Shown one piece after another: positions 14,985-29,809 of a DNA stretch of 33,744 nucleotides. This DNA comes from Methanobacteriota archaeon (lineage in GTDB: Archaea; Thermoplasmatota; Thermoplasmata; RBG-16-68-12). The stretch covers positions 1-33,744 of the forward strand of contig VBMB01000140.1 in assembly GCA_005878525.1 (NCBI GenBank). The letters run 5' to 3'. Made by a program: the position numbers and the translations under genes. The notes under the pieces are model-generated. The model ran no database searches and had not been told where the DNA came from. It saw nothing but the letters and a program-made list of their open reading frames with translations. Every line of letters begins with the position of its first letter. The first letter of the stretch is position 1.

Positions 14985-15970
14985 ATGGCGAAGTATTTCG
15001 TGACGGGCGCCACGGGCTTCATCGCGGTCGCGTCGCGCGCCAGTTGGTCGCTGCCGGCCATGACGTCGTGGCGATCGCCCGCAATCCGGAAAGCGCGCGC
15101 GACCTGGAGTCGATCGGTGTCGATGTCCGTCGCGGAGACATCACGGATCCGGATTCGTTGCGCGGCCTAATGGCCGGCGTCGATGGGGTGTTCCACATCG
15201 CGGGCTGGTACAAGATCGGGTCGAGGGACCTGTCGGAGGGAGAGCGGCTCAACCTCGCCGGCACTCGCAACGTGTTGACCGCGATGAAAGAACTCCGGGT
15301 TCCGAAAGGAGTCTACACGAGCACGCTGGCGGTGTTCTCGGACACCCACGGTCGACTCGTCGACGAGACCTATCGACACAACGGCCGGTGGCTGACGGAG
15401 TATGACTGGACGAAATGGATTGCCTATTACGAGATCGCGGAACCGATGATCCGTGCCGGGCTCCCGCTCGTCATCGTCCAGCCCGGCGTCAACTACGGTC
15501 CCGGCGACACGAGCGAAATCCGGCCCACGCGTGCGGTACCTCCAGGGCGATCTTCGAGCCATCCCGAAACGGACCGCGTATTGCTGGGCCCACATCGAGG
15601 ATACGGCGCGCGCGCATCCTCGCGATGGAACGAGGGAGGGTCGGCGAGGCGTACATCATCGCGGGTCCGCCCCACACGCTGATCGATGCGTTCGACGTGG
15701 CCGAGCGGATCACCGGAATCCCAGCGCCCTGGTTCCACGCTTCACCCGGCTTCCTCCGCGCCATCGCCGCCCTGTCGCGGTCCGAGCGACTCCGAGATCT
15801 CGCGGGGGTGACGTATCTCGGGAACAACCAGAAGGCCCGCCGGGAACTTGGATTCGACCCGAGGCCTCTGGACGATGGCCTGCGCGAAACGCTGCAACAC
15901 GAGATTCGGTTGCTCGGAATCCATTCCGCCGCGAGCAGAGCCCGCTGCGTGAGGAATTCCTCAAATAAAC
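14985..15970 (+). pseudogene. NAD-dependent epimerase/dehydratase (extended SDR), frameshifted
   Basis: Three reading frames together encode one extended short-chain dehydrogenase. The first frame from ATG 14985 gives MAKYFVTGATGFI, the NAD-binding start. Near 15021-15025 one base appears to be missing, and the next frame reads GRVARQLVAAGHDVVAI through the catalytic YDWTK (YxxxK) to GVNYGPGDTSE. Near 15523-15536 a second shift leads to YLQGDLRAIPKRTAYCW and HIEDTARAH, and near 15603-15615 a third leads to ILAMERGRVGEAYIIAGP and the C-terminal helices ending near LQHEIRLLGI. It resembles dihydroflavonol-reductase-like epimerases. Either it is a decayed gene or this 1-kb stretch holds sequencing errors, since nearly every other gene in the window is intact. 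The end coordinate is approximate. Confidence 0.8.
15961..15970 (+). promoter_or_regulatory. TATA-like box for DmdA-like gene 1
   Basis: TCAAATAAAC lies about 40 bases upstream of the first methyltransferase-like gene. The same element and about 20 following bases recur in front of the second paralogue at 18138, which supports a real promoter. Confidence 0.55.
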
Positions 15971-16035
15971 GATGCGCGTTCCCGGCCCAATTCTCCGGAG
16001 GGGATGACATCCCGCACAACGAAGGCCAAAGCACC

Positions 16036-17160
16036 TTGTTCTTCGGGCCGTGGTATCGGAAGTCTCCGTTCTTCGAGGCCACGCAGCGTGCGGGCGCGAA
16101 GGCGTACGACATCTACAATCACATGTACCTCCCGGGGCTCTACACGGATCCGTTCGAGGAGTATTGGCATCTGATTAATCACGTGACCTTGTGGGACGTC
16201 AGCGTCGAACGCCAGGTCGAGATCAGCGGGAAGGACGGCGCGAAGTTCGCGGAGCTGATCACGCCGCGGGACCTGACGAAATGCAAGGTCGGCCAGGGGA
16301 AATACGTGGTCATCACGGACGAAAACGGCGGGATCATCAACGATCCCGTGTTGATCCGACTCGAGAAGAACCGATTCTGGTTGAGCCTCGCGAACTCGGA
16401 CACGCTCCTCTGGGCGAAGGGTCTCGCGGTGAATTCCGGGATGGACGTGGACATCTCTGAGCCCGATGTGTCGCCGCTCCAGGTCCAGGGACCGGATTCA
16501 AAGAACGTGCTGAAGGACCTCGTCGGCCCCGCAATCCTCGATCTCGGATACTACTATTTCATGAACACGACGATCGCCGGCATCCCCGTCGTGATCACGC
16601 GGACCGGTTGGACGGCGGAGGTCGGCTACGAGGTGTATCTGACCGATGGGCGGCGAGGTCTCGAACTCTGGGACCGGATCATGGAGGCCGGGAAGAAATA
16701 CGACCTCCGCCCGATCGCGCCGTCGGAGATTCGGCGGATCGAGGGGGGCATCTTGAACTACGGGTCCGATATGACACTCGAGAACAACCCGTACGAAGTG
16801 GGTTTGGGCTGGCTCGTGGATCTCGGCAAGAAAGCGGACTTCGTCGGGAAGAAGGCGCTCGCCAAGATCAAGAAGGAGGGCGTGAAGCGAAAACTGGTGG
16901 GCGTCGAGATTCAAGGCCCGCAGATTCACGCGTGGGCGACGGAGTTCTGGGACGTGAAGAAGAACGGAAAGAAGGTCGGCCATCTGACCGCTCTCACATA
17001 CTCTCCGCGCCTCGAGAAAAACATCGCCTACGCTTGGGTTCCGATCCGTCTCGCAAAGCTCGGCACGCGGCTCACGATCGCGACCTCCGCGGGGGAGCGC
17101 GACGCCACCGTCGTCAAGAAGCCTTTCGTGGACCCCAAGAAATCGATTCCGAAATCTTGA
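16036..17160 (+). CDS. DmdA/GcvT-like aminomethyltransferase-family protein, copy 1
   Basis: First of three tandem paralogues in the GcvT/DMSP-demethylase (DmdA) superfamily, which moves one-carbon groups from methylated substrates to tetrahydrofolate or a similar carrier. Visible family features are WYRKSPFFEATQRAG, YNHMYLPGLY, LWDVSVERQVEISG, GGIINDPVLIRL, VSPLQVQGPDSKNV, ITRTGWTAEVGYEVYL and RRIEGGILNYGSDMTLENNP. The C-terminus (VVKKPFVDPKKSIPKS) is almost the same in all copies. The start is uncertain: TTG 16036 is the first in-frame start after the promoter. ATG 16004, with GGAGGGG beside it, is out of frame by one base, and alignment with copy 2 suggests a one-base error or mutation there. 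The true substrate is unknown. Confidence 0.82.
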   Translation: MFFGPWYRKSPFFEATQRAGAKAYDIYNHMYLPGLYTDPFEEYWHLINHVTLWDVSVERQVEISGKDGAKFAELITPRDLTKCKVGQGKYVVITDENGGIINDPVLIRLEKNRFWLSLANSDTLLWAKGLAVNSGMDVDISEPDVSPLQVQGPDSKNVLKDLVGPAILDLGYYYFMNTTIAGIPVVITRTGWTAEVGYEVYLTDGRRGLELWDRIMEAGKKYDLRPIAPSEIRRIEGGILNYGSDMTLENNPYEVGLGWLVDLGKKADFVGKKALAKIKKEGVKRKLVGVEIQGPQIHAWATEFWDVKKNGKKVGHLTALTYSPRLEKNIAYAWVPIRLAKLGTRLTIATSAGERDATVVKKPFVDPKKSIPKS

Positions 17161-17206
17161 ACGGAATTCCAGCGTCGCACGAAGAGAGCCGCAATTCGTT
17201 CCGAGC

Positions 17207-18049
17207 TCACCATGAGCGAAGGACGGGCCGTGTCAGGCACGTCGCGCCGCCTTCGGCTTTGAGGGAAATTTCCTTTCCACGGTACGTCCGGACGCGACAG
17301 CCGACGTCTTTCAGTCGCGCTTCCGTGACCGGATTCCCTTCGAGCATGATGCAATCGCGCGGCGCGACTGCGAGCACGTTCGGCGCCATCGTCTGGAATT
17401 CCTCGTCAGGGACTTCGACGAAATCGAACCCGTGTTCCCGGAGGAACTTCCAGAACGGGACCGGGAAGAGACGCGGATAGACGACCGCGAGGTCGTCGTC
17501 CAGGAGGCTGACGAGCGACATCAAGTGCAAGCAGGCTTCCGGGCCTCGAAAGGATGGGAGGGGAACCGGCACCGCTTCGATCCCGATTGCCTCCACGGCC
17601 TCGCGAATCTGCCGCAGCCCTTCGTTGTTGGTCCGGAAGCCTTGGCCTACGGCGAGGGTGTCGTGGTCCACCCACAACAGATCTCCTCCCTCCGCGGTCG
17701 CATCGTTGTGCAGGGTCGCGAGGATCGGAACGCCGAACGATCCGAAGGCCCGTGCCATCGAGCCCTCTTCGCCGCGGCGGAGCTCTTTCCCCATCCGGAG
17801 GATGACCGCGCCGCGGTCTGTGACGATCGCCGGATCGTGCACAAAGATCGAATCCGCTTTCTCCGGCTGCGGCTCCTCGTGATACAGGACCTCAATTCCA
17901 GAGCGCTTGAGCAGTTCGACGAGTGCGTCGTGCTCTTTCTGAGCCGCGGTAAGGTCCGGTTTCGCCGCATAGCCCCATCGATTTGGGTCCGACACGGCGA
18001 ACGATGCGTCGGGTCGCCGCATGAGCACCGTGCGAAGCGGGTCCGACAT
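17207..18049 (-). CDS. arginine deiminase/DDAH-family amidinohydrolase
   Basis: The 280-residue product has the guanidino-group-modifying fold of dimethylarginine dimethylaminohydrolases (DDAH) and arginine deiminases. From ATG 18049, the landmarks are ADSIFVHDPAIV, EGGDLLWVD, GQGFRTN (the guanidine- or carboxylate-binding RTN motif), the catalytic histidine in CLHLMSLV (residue 175) and the nucleophilic cysteine in GGATCLTRP (residue 271) near the C-terminus. DDAH would release citrulline and dimethylamine from dimethylarginine; other members hydrolyse arginine or transfer amidino groups. It lies antisense between two DmdA-like genes, so a link to methylamine chemistry is possible but unproven. 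A GTG at 18076 is an alternative start. Confidence 0.82.
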   Translation of the reverse strand: MSDPLRTVLMRRPDASFAVSDPNRWGYAAKPDLTAAQKEHDALVELLKRSGIEVLYHEEPQPEKADSIFVHDPAIVTDRGAVILRMGKELRRGEEGSMARAFGSFGVPILATLHNDATAEGGDLLWVDHDTLAVGQGFRTNNEGLRQIREAVEAIGIEAVPVPLPSFRGPEACLHLMSLVSLLDDDLAVVYPRLFPVPFWKFLREHGFDFVEVPDEEFQTMAPNVLAVAPRDCIMLEGNPVTEARLKDVGCRVRTYRGKEISLKAEGGATCLTRPVLRSW

Positions 18050-18137
18050 GCTTTGGCTTCCGTAGGTGCGTGTCACGCTCGGCCTCGACGAGGAAGCGAC
18101 GCGGACCTCTTACCCTTTGGCCCCTCGAAGACGGGCG

Positions 18138-18148
18138 TCAAATAAGCG
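18138..18148 (+). promoter_or_regulatory. TATA-like box for DmdA-like gene 2
   Basis: TCAAATAAGCG, about 40 bases upstream of GTG 18182, matches the element at 15961 in front of copy 1, and the similarity runs on for about 20 bases into the leader. Confidence 0.55.
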
Positions 18149-18181
18149 CTCCGCATTCCGTTCGGATCGAGGGGACGACGC

Positions 18182-19336
18182 GTGGTCATCGAAGGCGGAC
18201 AGACGACGCTCTACTTCGGACCTTGGTACCGGAAGTCGCCGTTCTTCGATGCGGCCCAGCGCGCAGGCTGCTACGGGTACGACGTCTACAACAAGATGTA
18301 CATCCCGAGCAACTTCGCGGATCCCGTCGAGGAATACTGGCACCTCGTGAATCACGTGACCATCTGGGACGTGGGATGCGAACGACAGGTGGAGATCCGC
18401 GGTCCCGACGGGTACGAGTTCATGGAGTACCTCACGCCCCGGGACCTCAGCACGTGCAAGGTGGGCCAGGCGAAGTACGTCGTCCTGACGGACGAGCAAG
18501 GCGGTCTCGTCAACGATCCGGTCCTCACGCGCCTCGCGAAGAACCGGTTCTGGCTCTCCACGGCGGACAGCGACGTGCTCCTGTGGGCCAAAGGGGTCTC
18601 ATACCACTCGGACTTCGACGTCGAGCTTAGCGAACCGGATGTTTCGCCGATGCAAATCCAGGGCCCGAAATCGAAGCAGGTGCTCCGGTCGCTCGTGGGC
18701 CCGCGGGTCCTGGATCTCGAATATTATCACTTCCTGGAGGCGAAGATCGATGGCATCCCGGTACTCGTGACGCGGACGGGCTGGTCCGCCGAAGTCGGGT
18801 ACGAGATCTATCTCCGCGACGGCAGCCGCGGCACGGACCTGTGGGACCGTGTGATGGACGCCGGGAGGCCCTTCAACCTCCGGCCCACGGGCCCCTCCGA
18901 GTACCGTCGGATCGAGGCGGGCATCCTGAACTATCCCTCCGACATCAACTTGGAGTACAACCCGTACGAGGCGGGGCTCGGTTGGCTCGTCGACCTCGAG
19001 AAGAAACACGACTTCATCGGACGGACGTCGCTGAAGAAAATCAAGAAGGAAGGACCGAAGAGGAAACTCGTGGGCGTGGCAGTCCCCGGAGATGAGGTCG
19101 TCCGGCCTTGGCTCCCGCATCCGTGGCCGGTTCGGAAGGACGGGAAGGAGATCGGAATTCTCACGGCGCTCGCGATGTCGCCTCGACTGAAGAAGAACAT
19201 CGGATACGCGTGGGTACTGACCCCTGTGTCGAAACTGGGTACAGAAATGGAAATCGTCACGCCGGCCGGTTCGCGGAGAGCGATTGTCGTCAAGAGACCG
19301 TTCATCGATCCGAAAAAGGAAGTTCCGAAGTCGTGA
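18182..19336 (+). CDS. DmdA/GcvT-like aminomethyltransferase-family protein, copy 2
   Basis: The second paralogue (384 residues) starts at GTG 18182 with VIEGGQTTLYFGPWYRKSP. It keeps all the blocks seen in copy 1: YNKMYIPSNF, IWDVGCERQVEIRG, GGLVNDPVLTRL, VSPMQIQGPKSKQV, VTRTGWSAEVGYEIYL and RRIEAGILNYPSDINLEYNP, ending VVKRPFIDPKKEVPKS. The family fold binds a folate-like carrier; in true DmdA the substrate is dimethylsulfoniopropionate. Substrate-side residues differ among the three copies (for example YNKMYIPSNF here against YNHMLMPGLY in copy 3), so the copies may have different substrates. It has its own promoter, shared in sequence with copy 1. No gcvH, gcvP or dehydrogenase partner is nearby. 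Confidence 0.87.
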   Translation: MVIEGGQTTLYFGPWYRKSPFFDAAQRAGCYGYDVYNKMYIPSNFADPVEEYWHLVNHVTIWDVGCERQVEIRGPDGYEFMEYLTPRDLSTCKVGQAKYVVLTDEQGGLVNDPVLTRLAKNRFWLSTADSDVLLWAKGVSYHSDFDVELSEPDVSPMQIQGPKSKQVLRSLVGPRVLDLEYYHFLEAKIDGIPVLVTRTGWSAEVGYEIYLRDGSRGTDLWDRVMDAGRPFNLRPTGPSEYRRIEAGILNYPSDINLEYNPYEAGLGWLVDLEKKHDFIGRTSLKKIKKEGPKRKLVGVAVPGDEVVRPWLPHPWPVRKDGKEIGILTALAMSPRLKKNIGYAWVLTPVSKLGTEMEIVTPAGSRRAIVVKRPFIDPKKEVPKS

Positions 19337-19432
19337 TCTTTACCGAGTCACGAATTGCCTCGAGCGATTTTCCGGCATCGCCAAAACGCTCATCTAGCCT
19401 CCCACCTTCCCCGTCCCAAATCAGGAGGTGGT

Positions 19433-20632
19433 ATGATACCCGGCCACACGCGCGACGGTGTCCTGACGGAAGCGACGAACGACTACGCGGGTCCGATTCT
19501 CCCGGGATTCCGGGAGACGGCATGGATCCAGAAATCGCCGTACTTCCATCGGGCCGCCAAGCACGGCGTTCGGGCGTACGACCTCTACAACCACATGCTC
19601 ATGCCGGGCCTCTACACCGACCCCGTGGAGGAGTACTGGCATCTCGTCAACCACGTGACGTTGTGGGACGTCGGCGTGGAGCGGCAGGTCGAGATCGACG
19701 GCCCGGATGGACTCGAGTTCATGCAGATGCTCACCCCGCGAGACATGCAGAAATGCGCGGTCGGCGAGTGCAAGTACGTGCTCCTGACGACTCCTGACGG
19801 CGGGATCATCAACGACCCGGTCCTCCTTCGCCTCGGGCAGAACCATTTCTGGCTCTCGTTGTCGGACTGGGACGTGATCTTCTGGTGCAAGGGCGTTGCG
19901 GTCAATGCGGGCCTCGACGTCAACGTGCGAGAGCCCGATGTGTCGCCGCTCCAGTTGCAGGGCCCGAAGTCGAAGGACGTCATGGTGGCGCTCTTCGGCG
20001 AGGAAATCCTCGACCTCGAGTACTATCACCTGCGGGAGACGGAGCTCGACGGAATCCCGCTCGTCATCACGCGGACGGGCTGGAGCGCAGAGCGCGGCTA
20101 CGAGCTGTATTTGCGCAATTCGAAGTTCGGCGAGAAACTCTGGGATGCGGTCATGGCCGCGGGGACGAAGCACGATATCCGGCCCATCGCCCCGTCGGAA
20201 ATTCGTCGGATCGAGGCGGGCATCCTGAACTACAGCTCGGACATCATGCTCGACAACAACCCGTACGAGGTCGGGCTCGGATGGACCGTGGACGAAGACA
20301 AGAAATCGGATTATCTCGGGAAAGCGGCGCTCGGCCGAATCAAGGAGGAGGGCGTGAAACGGAAACTCGTCGGGATCGAGGTCGAGGGTTCGCCGCTCGG
20401 AGCCTGGATCCCGGACTATTGGGACGTCTACGCGGACGACCGGAAGGTCGGCCACGTCACCTCGTTGACCTATTCGCCGCGGCTCGAGAAGAATATCGGC
20501 TATGCACTCCTCGGGATTGATCACGCGAAGATCGGCACGAGGCTGCGGGTGTCGACGACGAAAGGGACCCGCGGCGCCACGGTGGTGAAGAAGCCGTTCG
20601 TCGACCCGAAGAAAGATATTCCGAAGTCGTGA
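19433..20632 (+). CDS. DmdA/GcvT-like aminomethyltransferase-family protein, copy 3
   Basis: The third paralogue (399 residues) has a longer N-terminus than copies 1 and 2 (MIPGHTRDGVLTEATND, then PGFRETAWIQKSPYFHRAAKHG). It then shows the shared blocks YNHMLMPGLY, LWDVGVERQVEIDG, GGIINDPVLLRL, VSPLQLQGPKSKDV, ITRTGWSAERGYELYL and RRIEAGILNYSSDIMLDNNP, ending VVKKPFVDPKKDIPKS. In the TGW block Ala-Glu-Arg replaces Ala-Glu-Val of the other copies. ATG 19433 has a strong AGGAGGTG site 3-4 bases upstream, unlike copies 1 and 2, so translation is controlled differently. The substrate is unknown; sarcosine, dimethylglycine, DMSP and methoxy-aromatics are all handled by relatives. Confidence 0.88.
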   Translation: MIPGHTRDGVLTEATNDYAGPILPGFRETAWIQKSPYFHRAAKHGVRAYDLYNHMLMPGLYTDPVEEYWHLVNHVTLWDVGVERQVEIDGPDGLEFMQMLTPRDMQKCAVGECKYVLLTTPDGGIINDPVLLRLGQNHFWLSLSDWDVIFWCKGVAVNAGLDVNVREPDVSPLQLQGPKSKDVMVALFGEEILDLEYYHLRETELDGIPLVITRTGWSAERGYELYLRNSKFGEKLWDAVMAAGTKHDIRPIAPSEIRRIEAGILNYSSDIMLDNNPYEVGLGWTVDEDKKSDYLGKAALGRIKEEGVKRKLVGIEVEGSPLGAWIPDYWDVYADDRKVGHVTSLTYSPRLEKNIGYALLGIDHAKIGTRLRVSTTKGTRGATVVKKPFVDPKKDIPKS

Positions 20633-22925: not shown

Positions 22926-22938
22926 CCGACTTAGTCGG
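22926..22938. repeat. small inverted repeat upstream of the RidA gene
   Basis: CCGAC-TTA-GTCGG, 5-base arms with a 3-base spacer, covers the stop codon of the alkyltransferase fusion gene and lies 44 bases upstream of the RidA ATG. It could be an operator or a hairpin. A repeat of the same 5-3-5 layout, CCGAT-CCA-ATCGG, lies in the tag promoter. Confidence 0.4.
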
Positions 22939-24157
22939 CGGGGTGGGATGACGAGCGAGGCGGGACCGCTTTTCTAGGACCGTCGTTCCGATTGCGCTCT
23001 GTGGATTGCGTCCTCATCGCGAGGGCCAAACTTGCCCCCTCTCGTTCAAGGAGCTTCCGCTTCGTCTCGGGGCCGCCCTCGGAGGAGTAGTTCCCGAGTC
23101 CGCCGGACTTCGGGACCACCCGGTGGCACGGAATGACGATGACCGCCGGGTTCCGCGCGCAGGCGGTCCCGACCGCGCGGCTCGCTCCCGGTCGACCCAG
23201 GCGCCGGGCGATCTCCCCGTACGTGATCGTCTCGCCCGGGGGAATCGTTCGCAGGAAATCGAGGACCTCCCTCTCGAACGGCGCGACCTCGAGGGCGACC
23301 GGAATGTCCCGCAGATCCCCGTTCCCCGTGTGGACATGTTCGAGGATCCGGGCTAGATATGGGTGGTCCGATCCTGCGGTCTCCGTCGGAGCCTTGCGGG
23401 CCAGCCTCACCGCGGCGACGCGATTCCCCAAGACCTCGAGCTGGACGTACAGCCCGAGTTCGCGACTGAACTTCGAGTAGACCTCCAACGCTTCGCCGTC
23501 TCCCCTGCCGGAACGCACACGGACCATCGGCAGCATCGCCCGGACCACATGATGCTCGGCCCGATTCAGGTGCTGTTCGAAGGTGCTCCGAGCGATGCCG
23601 AGAGAAAGGCTGACCTGTTCCGTCGTCGCCTTCCGTGGGAACTCGTAGTAGCCGGCTTCGTACGCCGCGAGGAGGGCCCGCGCCTGCTTCTCGGTGAGCG
23701 TGGGCAAGAACAGAGGGGACGAATAGGTGACTCGATCTCCGCGGCTCGGGACGGGGCGCCGCTTCGAAACGAGGCGGGCACCCGGGAACTGATCGAGCAG
23801 GGCTTGTGGGTCGGCCCCGTCCTCAAGGACCAAGGTCACCCGCGCTTCGCCACGCTGCCAACGAATCGGCGGGATGAGGTGCGCGCTCTGATCCGCGAGC
23901 GACGCGATGATTTCCTCCTCGCGGCCGGAGCCATCGAGCAATAGGGTGACCTCGTCCCCAGTCCTCGTTGCATGGAGGACCTTGCCGCCGGGGCCGTTAA
24001 TCTCGGTTGCCGCATCAATGCCGTCCACGTCTCCAAAGCACCGGAGGAGCAGGAGTCGGCCCAGAGGATACGCATCGATCGCGAGGCCCGGACGTCGTTC
24101 CGTGACTTCCTGGAGCGGCCCTTCGGAACGGGTCGCGAAGCTCATCTGGGTCGTCAT
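22931..24157 (-). CDS. Ada-like fusion: HTH_10 transcription regulator plus O6-alkylguanine-DNA alkyltransferase
   Basis: This 408-residue fusion has three parts. Residues 1-145 resemble the variable sensor-like N-terminal region of archaeal bacterio-opsin-activator (Bat/DmsR-type) regulators. Residues 152-207 are an HTH_10 domain: LPTLTEKQARALLAAYEAGYY, then TTEQVSLSLGIARSTFEQHL. Residues 225-375 are an O6-methylguanine-DNA methyltransferase with ITYGEIARRLG (Tyr313), the finger arginine in ASRAVG (Arg327), ARNP and the active-site IPCHRVV (acceptor Cys344). The design recalls bacterial Ada but with archaeal, unrelated regulator parts. The likely role is alkyl-damage repair coupled to gene control. 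ATG 24157 overlaps the stop of a possible 36-codon ORF and has a GAGGT site. Overlapping palindromes lie about 120 bases upstream. Confidence 0.87.
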   Translation of the reverse strand: MTTQMSFATRSEGPLQEVTERRPGLAIDAYPLGRLLLLRCFGDVDGIDAATEINGPGGKVLHATRTGDEVTLLLDGSGREEEIIASLADQSAHLIPPIRWQRGEARVTLVLEDGADPQALLDQFPGARLVSKRRPVPSRGDRVTYSSPLFLPTLTEKQARALLAAYEAGYYEFPRKATTEQVSLSLGIARSTFEQHLNRAEHHVVRAMLPMVRVRSGRGDGEALEVYSKFSRELGLYVQLEVLGNRVAAVRLARKAPTETAGSDHPYLARILEHVHTGNGDLRDIPVALEVAPFEREVLDFLRTIPPGETITYGEIARRLGRPGASRAVGTACARNPAVIVIPCHRVVPKSGGLGNYSSEGGPETKRKLLEREGASLALAMRTQSTERNRNDGPRKAVPPRSSSHPAD

Positions 24158-24264
24158 GCGACCTCATCCTCATCCGCGGAGCCGACCGTTCCGTGCTGAC
24201 CGGGCGCTTTCGCGGCTGGCTCGTTGGCCCGCATGCTTTCCGACAGGGCGGCCCAGGGCATCAT
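24154..24264 (-). CDS. possible 36-residue leader ORF before the Ada-like gene
   Basis: An ORF from ATG 24264 encodes MMPWAALSESMRANEPAAK and a tail ending SADEDEVA. Its stop overlaps the Ada-like ATG as ATGA, the kind of overlap used for translational coupling in this window (fdhF-like/fdhD, tag/repeat protein). I recognise no homology and it has no clear ribosome binding site, so it may be chance. If translated, it could act as a leader peptide. Confidence 0.25.
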   Translation of the reverse strand: MMPWAALSESMRANEPAAKAPGQHGTVGSADEDEVA

Positions 24265-24271
24265 TCTTGGG

Positions 24272-24296
24272 CCGGCGATCGCCGGTGATTCACCGG
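24272..24296. promoter_or_regulatory. overlapping palindromes, candidate operator of the Ada-like gene
   Basis: Two palindromes share a half-site: CCGGCGATCGCCGG (24272-24285, perfect) and CCGGTGA-T-TCACCGG (24282-24296, perfect arms around one base). They lie in the 222-base gap between the TfoX-N and Ada-like genes, just upstream of the possible leader ORF and about 20-50 bases downstream of a weak AT-rich CCAAATCAC. The layout fits binding of a dimeric regulator, possibly the HTH_10 fusion itself. Confidence 0.5.
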
Positions 24297-28159: not shown

Positions 28160-29122
28160 TCAGATCGATTCGTCGACTCGATTCAGCACTTGCAAGGCCT
28201 TCAGGGTGATCAGCTTGCTCGGCTCGCCGGGTTTCTCGAGGCCAAACGGCGTCGGCGCGTGCTTCGGATGCTTCGCGTACCATTCAGCCACGCCGCCCTC
28301 GGCGTCCGGATGGAGCGCGTCGAGGTTCCACTTCCCGTCCGGCCGCCTCTTCCCCCGGAGGAGATTCAGCGCGAATCGCAATCGGGGGTCCGCCCCGTAC
28401 CCCAGGGCGGTCATGAAATCGAGGCCGACGAGCAAATCGTAATAGTAGTGGACGGGGTAATGGAACCGGTACCACGGTGGGTATTCGGCGCCTTGTTTGT
28501 GTAGTTCTTTCCCCAGGTAATACTCGGCCCCGAGTTCGACCGCGCGCTTCATGCCCTCGGTCCACTTCTGTTTGGGATACACCGCGAAGGCGCTCATGCC
28601 CTCCCACGAGTCCAGGTTCCGACCAGTCCCAAAACAACTCCAGCCGCCGTTCTTGTCCCGATTCTTGACAAGCCACTCGAACGCCCCGCGGACCGCCGGA
28701 TGATCCGCGTAGCCGAATTGCACGAGGGCGCGCGTCGCGTTCCCGGTCGTGCAGAGGTGGCCCTTCTTGGAACCATCCATCGCGAACCCTCCATCATCCC
28801 TAGAGAATCGGTCGATCCAGAGCTCGCACGCCTTTTCGATTCGCGGATCGGCCTTGCTCAACCCGAGGTCCGCCAGCACGAGGAGCATCCAATTCGTGGA
28901 CAGATACTTCGGGTGGTAGAGGCTCTCTCCGCTCACCCACCATCCCGCAGGGTCCTCCTTCGTCAGGATCTGTTCGGCCCATCCTTTTCTCGTCATCATG
29001 TCTCTGGCGGCAACGACCACCGGGTCGTCAAGAGGTCTTCCGAGCAACCGAGTCAGCGTGAGATAGCGGACAGTCGGTTGGTCCTCTTCGAGCAGCCAGT
29101 CCAAGGCGCTTTTGGGCTTCAT
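28160..29122 (-). CDS. terpene cyclase/prenyltransferase-fold repeat protein
   Basis: The 320-residue protein is built of alpha-helical repeats with QW-like turns: RDDGGFAMDG (108-117), KNGGWSCFGTG (158-167) and PDGKWNLDAL (261-270). This is the alpha-alpha barrel seen in squalene-hopene cyclases, prenyltransferase beta subunits and related proteins. The acidic DXDD motif of true squalene cyclases is not visible and the protein is about half their size, so it is probably not a hopanoid cyclase. It has no signal or membrane segment. Its ATG overlaps the tag stop (ATGA), so it is translated with a DNA glycosylase; the functional link is unknown. Confidence 0.7.
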   Translation of the reverse strand: MKPKSALDWLLEEDQPTVRYLTLTRLLGRPLDDPVVVAARDMMTRKGWAEQILTKEDPAGWWVSGESLYHPKYLSTNWMLLVLADLGLSKADPRIEKACELWIDRFSRDDGGFAMDGSKKGHLCTTGNATRALVQFGYADHPAVRGAFEWLVKNRDKNGGWSCFGTGRNLDSWEGMSAFAVYPKQKWTEGMKRAVELGAEYYLGKELHKQGAEYPPWYRFHYPVHYYYDLLVGLDFMTALGYGADPRLRFALNLLRGKRRPDGKWNLDALHPDAEGGVAEWYAKHPKHAPTPFGLEKPGEPSKLITLKALQVLNRVDESI

Positions 29123-29736
29123 TTCCGGCGTGAGCCTCCTGGCCCGGGGCGCGTTCCCATGCCGTAGCGCTGATCGCTCCGGAAGCAGTCGGTGAGATGG
29201 TCGTTCACCATCCCGACCGCTTGCATGTACGCGTAGCAGATTGTCGAACCGACAAACTTGAAGCCTCGACTCTTCAGGTCCTCGCTCATTTCGTCCGATT
29301 CCTTTGTTCGTGCCGGGATTTGTTTCAAGGTCTTCCTCCGGCTCGGTTTCGGTCCACGACCCGCGAAACGCCAGATGTACGCGTCGAAGCTCCCGAACTC
29401 CTTTTCCACGATCAGGAAGGCTTTGGCATTTTCGATGGCGGCCGCGATCTTCGCTCGGTTCCGGATGATGCCGGCGTCGGCGAGGAGCGTCCGGACCTTC
29501 CTCGAATCGTATTGCGCGACTTTCACGGGATCGAATCCGTCGAAGGCTTTTCTGAACGCCTCGCGTTTCTTCAGCACCGTGAGCCAGGAGAGACCCGCCT
29601 GTGCCCCTTCCAGGACGAGGAATTCGAAAAGCTTGCGGTCGTCATGTTCCGGAACGCCCCACTCGGCGTCGTGATAGGCCAGGAGAGCCGGGTCCCCGAG
29701 AGCCCATTCGCACCGCTTGACCGAATCGTCGCGCAT
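29119..29736 (-). CDS. tag: 3-methyladenine DNA glycosylase I
   Basis: The 205-residue Tag-family glycosylase removes 3-methyladenine from alkylated DNA. The zinc-snap residues are present as Cys9 and His22 at the N-terminus and His180 and Cys184 (VNDHLTDC) at the C-terminus. The core has EWGVPEHDDRKLFEFLVLEG, AGLSWLTVLKKREAFR and FDGFDPVKVA, with a helix-hairpin-helix-like middle. ATG 29736 has AGGAG about six bases upstream; ATG 29751 and 29793 are alternatives, but the latter is too close to the TATA-like box. A small inverted repeat lies between that box and the start. With the Ada-like fusion 5 kb away, the region carries two separate activities against alkylated bases. Confidence 0.93.
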   Translation of the reverse strand: MRDDSVKRCEWALGDPALLAYHDAEWGVPEHDDRKLFEFLVLEGAQAGLSWLTVLKKREAFRKAFDGFDPVKVAQYDSRKVRTLLADAGIIRNRAKIAAAIENAKAFLIVEKEFGSFDAYIWRFAGRGPKPSRRKTLKQIPARTKESDEMSEDLKSRGFKFVGSTICYAYMQAVGMVNDHLTDCFRSDQRYGMGTRPGPGGSRRK

Positions 29737-29784
29737 CCGCGTCTCCTTCATCGCTGTCCGGGGCGCGCCGAAGCCAAACACCGC

Positions 29785-29809
29785 CCGATCCAATCGGTCA
29801 TATACAAAC
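29785..29809 (-). promoter_or_regulatory. tag promoter with adjacent inverted repeat
   Basis: The minus strand has a strong TATA-like GTTTGTATATG (29799-29809), followed immediately by the inverted repeat CCGAT-TGG-ATCGG (29785-29797). A repeat just downstream of the TATA box is where an archaeal repressor would block polymerase recruitment, so tag may be regulated. Confidence 0.5.

Follow-up and report, generated by a model that had tools for sequence, protein, structure and literature searches.

In the textbook example of Ada, a repair enzyme doubles as the switch of its own gene, and the locus described herein raises the question of whether some archaea control a repair enzyme by comparable means. 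The window that we analysed, a stretch of 33,744 nucleotides from a thermoplasmatal archaeon, encodes an HTH_10 transcription factor that carries a predicted active O6-alkylguanine-DNA alkyltransferase (AGT) on the same chain (Table 1). A palindromic site is kept before this gene in some soil and methanogen-related archaea, from which we infer that the repair enzyme probably regulates its own synthesis. The combination of HTH_10 and AGT appears to be new, and the logic of joining repair to a switch is already known from Ada.

Table 1. Features of the HTH_10-AGT gene and its upstream region (window coordinates).
Feature	Position	Strand	Basis
HTH_10-AGT fusion gene	22931..24157	-	single open frame; full-length homologues in three families
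N-terminal domain, residues 1-135, as in other archaeal HTH_10 proteins	23753..24157	-	paralogue alignment; pLDDT ~90
HTH_10 domain, residues 154-205	23543..23698	-	PF04967
AGT N-terminal subdomain, residues 222-290	23288..23494	-	AlphaFold2 model; Foldseek match to solved AGTs spanning ~155 residues
AGT C-terminal catalytic and DNA-binding domain, residues 293-375	23033..23281	-	PF01035; invariant catalytic residues
Codon of the alkyl acceptor Cys344, within IPCHRVV	23126..23128	-	sequence; invariant
Weak, possible BRE/TATA-like stretch immediately 3' of the palindrome	24256..24271	-	position, by comparison with f15, f25 and the second f1 type
Conserved 20-base block ACCGGCGATCGCCGGCCCAA, containing the palindrome	24267..24286	-	14/14 main-type genomes, 0/5 others
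Perfect palindrome CCGGCGATCGCCGG, candidate operator of the fusion gene	24272..24285	.	kept in 13/13 aligned genus loci

The gene encodes 408 amino acids from an ATG whose position is nearly forced, as the open frame comprises only 410 codons. Pfam searches, run from residue 2 but reported here in full-protein numbering, identified HTH_10 (PF04967; 65.6 bits against a cut-off of 23.1, E 3.5e-18) and DNA_binding_1 (PF01035; 110 bits against a cut-off of 27, E 5e-32). Residues 4-216 align with an HTH_10 paralogue encoded in the same genome (29% identity, E 9.8e-16) whose N-terminal domain matches PF24280 (HVO_A0563_N), and the regulator half thus combines an above-cut-off PF04967 match with the N-terminal domain typical of the family. 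As judged from this alignment, the fusion joins a whole HTH_10 regulator, rather than a helix-turn-helix alone, to a whole AGT.

The C-terminal part is placed by NCBIfam in the ogt superfamily and scores 93.1 bits against TIGR00589, whose cut-off is 46.4. Along with this homology above the curated cut-off, it has the residues expected of an AGT, namely the tyrosine (Tyr313), the arginine finger (Arg327), the asparagine hinge (Asn336), the cysteine and histidine of PCHR (Cys344 and His345) and the glutamate (Glu373), all of which are invariant in 27/27 fusions. Their human counterparts are Y114, R128, N137, C145, H146 and E172, whose roles have been reviewed (PMC10779285). The AlphaFold2 model of the protein (mean pLDDT 87, from a 52-row alignment) has as its top Foldseek matches the Mycobacterium tuberculosis OGT, the C-terminal part of E. 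coli Ada (1sfe) and archaeal OGTs. The initial annotation had proposed a single chain with HTH_10, a complete AGT, the IPCHRVV motif and an acceptor at Cys344, and the domain matches, reading frame and homologues bear it out in each respect.

Comparison of close orthologues gave dN/dS values of about 0.03-0.15 for the N-terminal domain, about 0.04-0.07 for HTH_10 and 0-0.08 for the AGT C-terminal domain, such that HTH_10 is as low as the AGT; values were high only in the linker (residues 136-150) and the C-terminal tail. These low ratios indicate purifying selection on all domains of the fusion and argue that both halves are in use.

The genomes compared are draft metagenome assemblies, mainly from the phylum Thermoplasmatota, with non-exhaustive sampling of other phyla. 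The wider search for this architecture suggested by the initial annotation recovered fusions in three Thermoplasmatota families. Within the window's own Thermoplasmata genus, from which two types (the f1 types) derive, 17 of 19 genomes carry it: 14 have the main type, one of these split over two contigs, and three a second type, one of these truncated at a contig end. The two genus genomes that lack the fusion are 64% and 75% complete. In the other two families, f15 and f25, full fusions were found in 13/103 and 2/15 genomes, respectively, the f25 carriers being named Methanomassiliicoccus sp. An architecture kept in 17/19 genus genomes and in two further families is not a chance event. The close relatives of the window's genome are soil genomes named 'Euryarchaeota EA_*', which resemble those from the Angelo Coast Range Reserve behind Ca. 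Angelarchaeales, a placement that is tentative (PMC9038741). No fusion was found in the plasmid and viral collections searched, and in a scan of genome contigs the HTH_10 relatives of Halobacteria were unfused.

Within the genus the fusion seems to have taken the place of the ordinary AGT, allowing for incomplete genomes. Fifteen of the 17 fusion-bearing genomes have no second full-strength match to PF01035, the leftover match in these being weak, and in one genome (G014) it belongs to an ATL-type protein without the PCHR cysteine. This protein is an ATL-endonuclease V fusion (L271:1139-2083) that lacks the active-site cysteine and coexists with the HTH_10-AGT fusion. The remaining two carriers encode the fusion and a solo AGT together, and both fusion-free genus genomes encode a native solo AGT.

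In a tree of the AGT half, every fusion falls into a single clade (96/87), which also takes in a few f25 AGTs that have no HTH half and is separate from the class's ordinary AGTs. The N-terminal and HTH halves likewise form one clade (98/97). Both trees resolve the same sub-lineages, comprising f15, the main f1 type, and the second f1 type with f25. Given this agreement, the simplest reading is a single old fusion event followed by spread and loss.

Loss is best seen in f25, where five AGTs inside the fusion clade lack the HTH half and a sixth such sequence is truncated at a contig end. Most of these share a locus with the f25 fusions, as marked by a divergent URO-D gene or an amino-acid permease, and no HTH_10 gene was detected near them even at maximum HMM sensitivity. 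The shared locus and the absence of a neighbouring HTH_10 gene indicate that the HTH half was lost here, and that the gene was not split in two. Frameshift-split homologues, which the initial annotation had named as grounds for doubt, were accordingly looked for, and the HTH-less genes proved to be these products of loss. The survival of the AGT alone implies that the HTH half is dispensable in some f25 species. A URO-D-family gene lies divergent from the fusion or solo AGT at 7/8 f25 loci; it could encode a corrinoid methyltransferase-type protein, in relatives of methylotrophic methanogens.

Alignment of 13 upstream regions from the genus revealed a single block of strong conservation, ACCGGCGATCGCCGGCCCAA. 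It is kept although the genes lying upstream vary among these loci and include TfoX-like, Fic and malate synthase genes; a Fic/DOC-family gene lies directly upstream of the fusion in three species (for example L180:7740-8654), a place held in the window by the TfoX-like gene. Searched with at most one mismatch across the 19 genus genomes, the block precedes the fusion gene in every main-type genome and in none of the others (Table 1). In the main type, about 115 bp separate the palindrome within it from the ATG downstream, and a second, AAAACCTATTG-like conserved block that is absent in several genomes lies closer to the ATG.

Other lineages have palindromes of their own before the fusion gene, namely CCGAC-N4-GTCGG in f15, CCGAC-N4-GCCGG in the second f1 type and CCGGCATATGCCGG in one f25 fusion. 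A 14-bp common form, CCGRC-N4-GYCGG, is found exactly within about 220 bp upstream at 25/30 loci of the three families, a count that is descriptive since the form was derived from these same 30 loci; the exceptions include 4/13 f15 loci and 1/2 f25 loci. Independent checks came from random windows, a genome-wide search and the HTH-less loci. In random windows from the same loci the common form averages about 1%, and the six HTH-less f25 AGTs have nothing closer to it than two mismatches within 450 bp upstream. The site follows the HTH half, not the AGT half, and this is the strongest evidence that the palindrome belongs to the fusion protein. One Methanomassiliicoccaceae locus, where HTH half and operator were lost together, amounts to a natural experiment, and an operator-like palindrome kept upstream together with the HTH half makes the fusion protein very probably a regulator.

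An AT-richer, BRE/TATA-like stretch comes immediately after the palindrome in the second f1 type and in families f15 and f25, an arrangement that would fit activation somewhat better than repression. In the recognition helix of HTH_10 (about residues 189-197), lineages with ARSTFEQH have mainly CCGGC half-sites and f15, with RSTAEEH, mainly CCGAC; the Phe/Ala position may possibly be linked to a change in operator specificity.

Strict motif scans of the draft genomes of the genus, in which weaker sites or missing parts may escape, detected no second recurrent promoter site. Most of these genomes have no second site or scattered ones, and in the window's genome the sole extra site lies inside an ORF. 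Extra matches in f15 were treated as chance rather than as targets, as fusion-free genomes have them too and their spacers are mostly of the GC type. These scans also gave no sign of a regulon shared with other repair genes. Directly 3' of the fusion at 12/13 f15 loci, on the same strand, is an EamA-type transporter gene that probably forms an operon with it. With strict scans pointing to its own promoter only, plus this f15 gene downstream, the fusion appears to be an autoregulator that acts on very few targets. The control of target genes envisaged by the initial annotation therefore narrows to the fusion's own promoter and, in one family, the EamA gene; a broad target set was not borne out.

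Two further features of the surroundings deserve mention. A gene for 3-methyladenine DNA glycosylase I (Tag; PF03352, E 1.5e-81) lies about 5 kb from the fusion in the window (29119-29793, minus strand), and several genus genomes retain the linkage at a distance of 4-6 kb, with reversed orientation in one. A conserved operon with a repair gene was looked for and not found, and strict scans across the genus found no consistent palindrome at the tag gene. At window positions 15415-20632, three genes of the GCV_T (aminomethyltransferase-like) family lie beside an amidinohydrolase gene of the ADI/DDAH family (17207-18076, minus strand), which suggests methylated-amine or one-carbon metabolism near the repair gene.

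Collectively, these data lead us to regard as likely a self-regulating AGT, built on an HTH_10 transcription factor and acting through its own upstream palindrome as a damage-responsive loop. The HTH_10 domain, presumably dimeric, would bind CCGRC-N4-GYCGG upstream of its own gene and so control its own synthesis, and in f15 probably that of the downstream EamA transporter as well. Lesion binding or irreversible alkylation of Cys344 would then alter DNA binding, activation or protein stability, and the altered state would adjust replacement of the suicide enzyme. An AGT is consumed by each repair, and a switch linking its synthesis to its own state is consequently a plausible benefit. Alkylation is known to destabilise AGTs (PMC10779285, PMC7216122). 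Binding of the palindrome by the fusion protein, the sign of regulation and the coupling to alkylation are inferred, as is the change of regulation upon alkyl transfer or lesion binding that the initial annotation suggested.

The candidate sensors are the lesion-bound AGT, alkylated Cys344 or a ligand of the N-terminal domain. We tentatively entertain, at somewhat less than an even chance, that the AGT active site is itself the damage sensor, with O6-alkylguanine binding or Cys344 alkylation directly switching HTH_10 at its own palindrome. If so, these archaea would have an adaptive response to alkylation that operates without the phosphotriester switch of Ada. A possibility that we take seriously, yet on balance doubt, is that the HTH_10 half sets the AGT level without sensing alkylation at all, either by plain feedback or through a small ligand at the N-terminal domain. 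That domain is under purifying selection and is common to HTH_10 regulators without an AGT, the operator evidence requires no damage sensing and only one target is apparent; however, separate genes would suffice for such control, which leaves the retention of one chain in three families unexplained, and the N-terminal domain has no known ligand.

HTH_10 paralogues are numerous in these genomes, and one of them, or some other regulator, might bind the palindrome while the HTH half of the fusion aims elsewhere. We judge this improbable, given that the site tracks the HTH half of the fusion in three families and vanishes upon HTH loss at the same locus, and that the palindrome variants differ with fusion lineage. 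The same behaviour makes it quite unlikely that the HTH_10 domain merely adds general or local DNA affinity, targeting or tethering an enzyme that is no regulator: fusions of AGT-family proteins to other DNA-acting domains are known (AGT-EndoV and ATL-EndoV; PMC10779285), but a specific palindrome kept with the HTH half and gone without it is unexpected for a non-specific tether. Finally, while draft metagenome assemblies invite the suspicion of a frameshift, split-gene, assembly or annotation artefact, this is refuted by several observations: about 30 genomes from different species carry the fusion in a single unbroken frame, the trees of the two halves agree, dN/dS is low on either side of the junction and no HTH_10 gene neighbours the HTH-less homologues. 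For the self-regulating AGT that we favour, the candidate operator is defined, and one protein and one 20-bp site make it directly testable whether archaea respond to DNA alkylation by regulation, and through what sensor.

Among known systems, bacterial Ada (E. coli Ada; NF011964) is the closest in logic. Like the fusion, it carries on one chain a C-terminal AGT of the same fold and a transcription-factor domain, and the fusion, too, probably acts on a defined site upstream to control its own promoter. Unlike Ada, the fusion has HTH_10 and no AraC-type HTH (no AraC match in Pfam), has no match at E values up to 1 to the Pfam zinc-binding, methylphosphotriester-accepting domain, and shows no sign of a wider repair regulon in strict scans of draft genomes. 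Its Cys40 and Cys333 are not invariant among fusions, Cys344 alone being so, and against the Ada equivalog NF011964 it scores 75.8 bits, over the AGT part only, where the cut-off is 345. With two defining features missing, the zinc sensor domain and the AraC HTH, the fusion is Ada-like in logic, as far as sequence tells, and not a member of the Ada family; that it was assembled independently of bacterial Ada, as originally proposed, is supported by these absences.

The fusion shares residues 4-216, with the common N-terminal domain and HTH_10, with archaeal HTH_10 regulators (PF04967; HVO_A0563-type, PF24280), but known members end after HTH_10 whereas the fusion continues into a complete AGT. 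Stand-alone enzymes such as the OGTs of Sulfolobus solfataricus and M. tuberculosis have the same fold and catalytic residues without the regulator half, and the fusion AGTs form a clade of their own. The AGT-endonuclease V and ATL-endonuclease V fusions reviewed in PMC10779285 are likewise archaeal and contain an AGT-family domain, and one genus genome encodes an ATL-EndoV, but there the partner is a nuclease and here it is a transcription factor. Ada-type adaptive responses are described from bacteria and fungi (PMC10779285, PMC7216122), and an HTH_10-AGT protein is absent from these two reviews and was not found in full-text searches of the literature outside subscription papers. If the self-regulating reading is true, the fusion would represent a second, independently assembled Ada-like solution, archaeal in origin, with an unrelated DNA-binding domain and no phosphotriester sensor.
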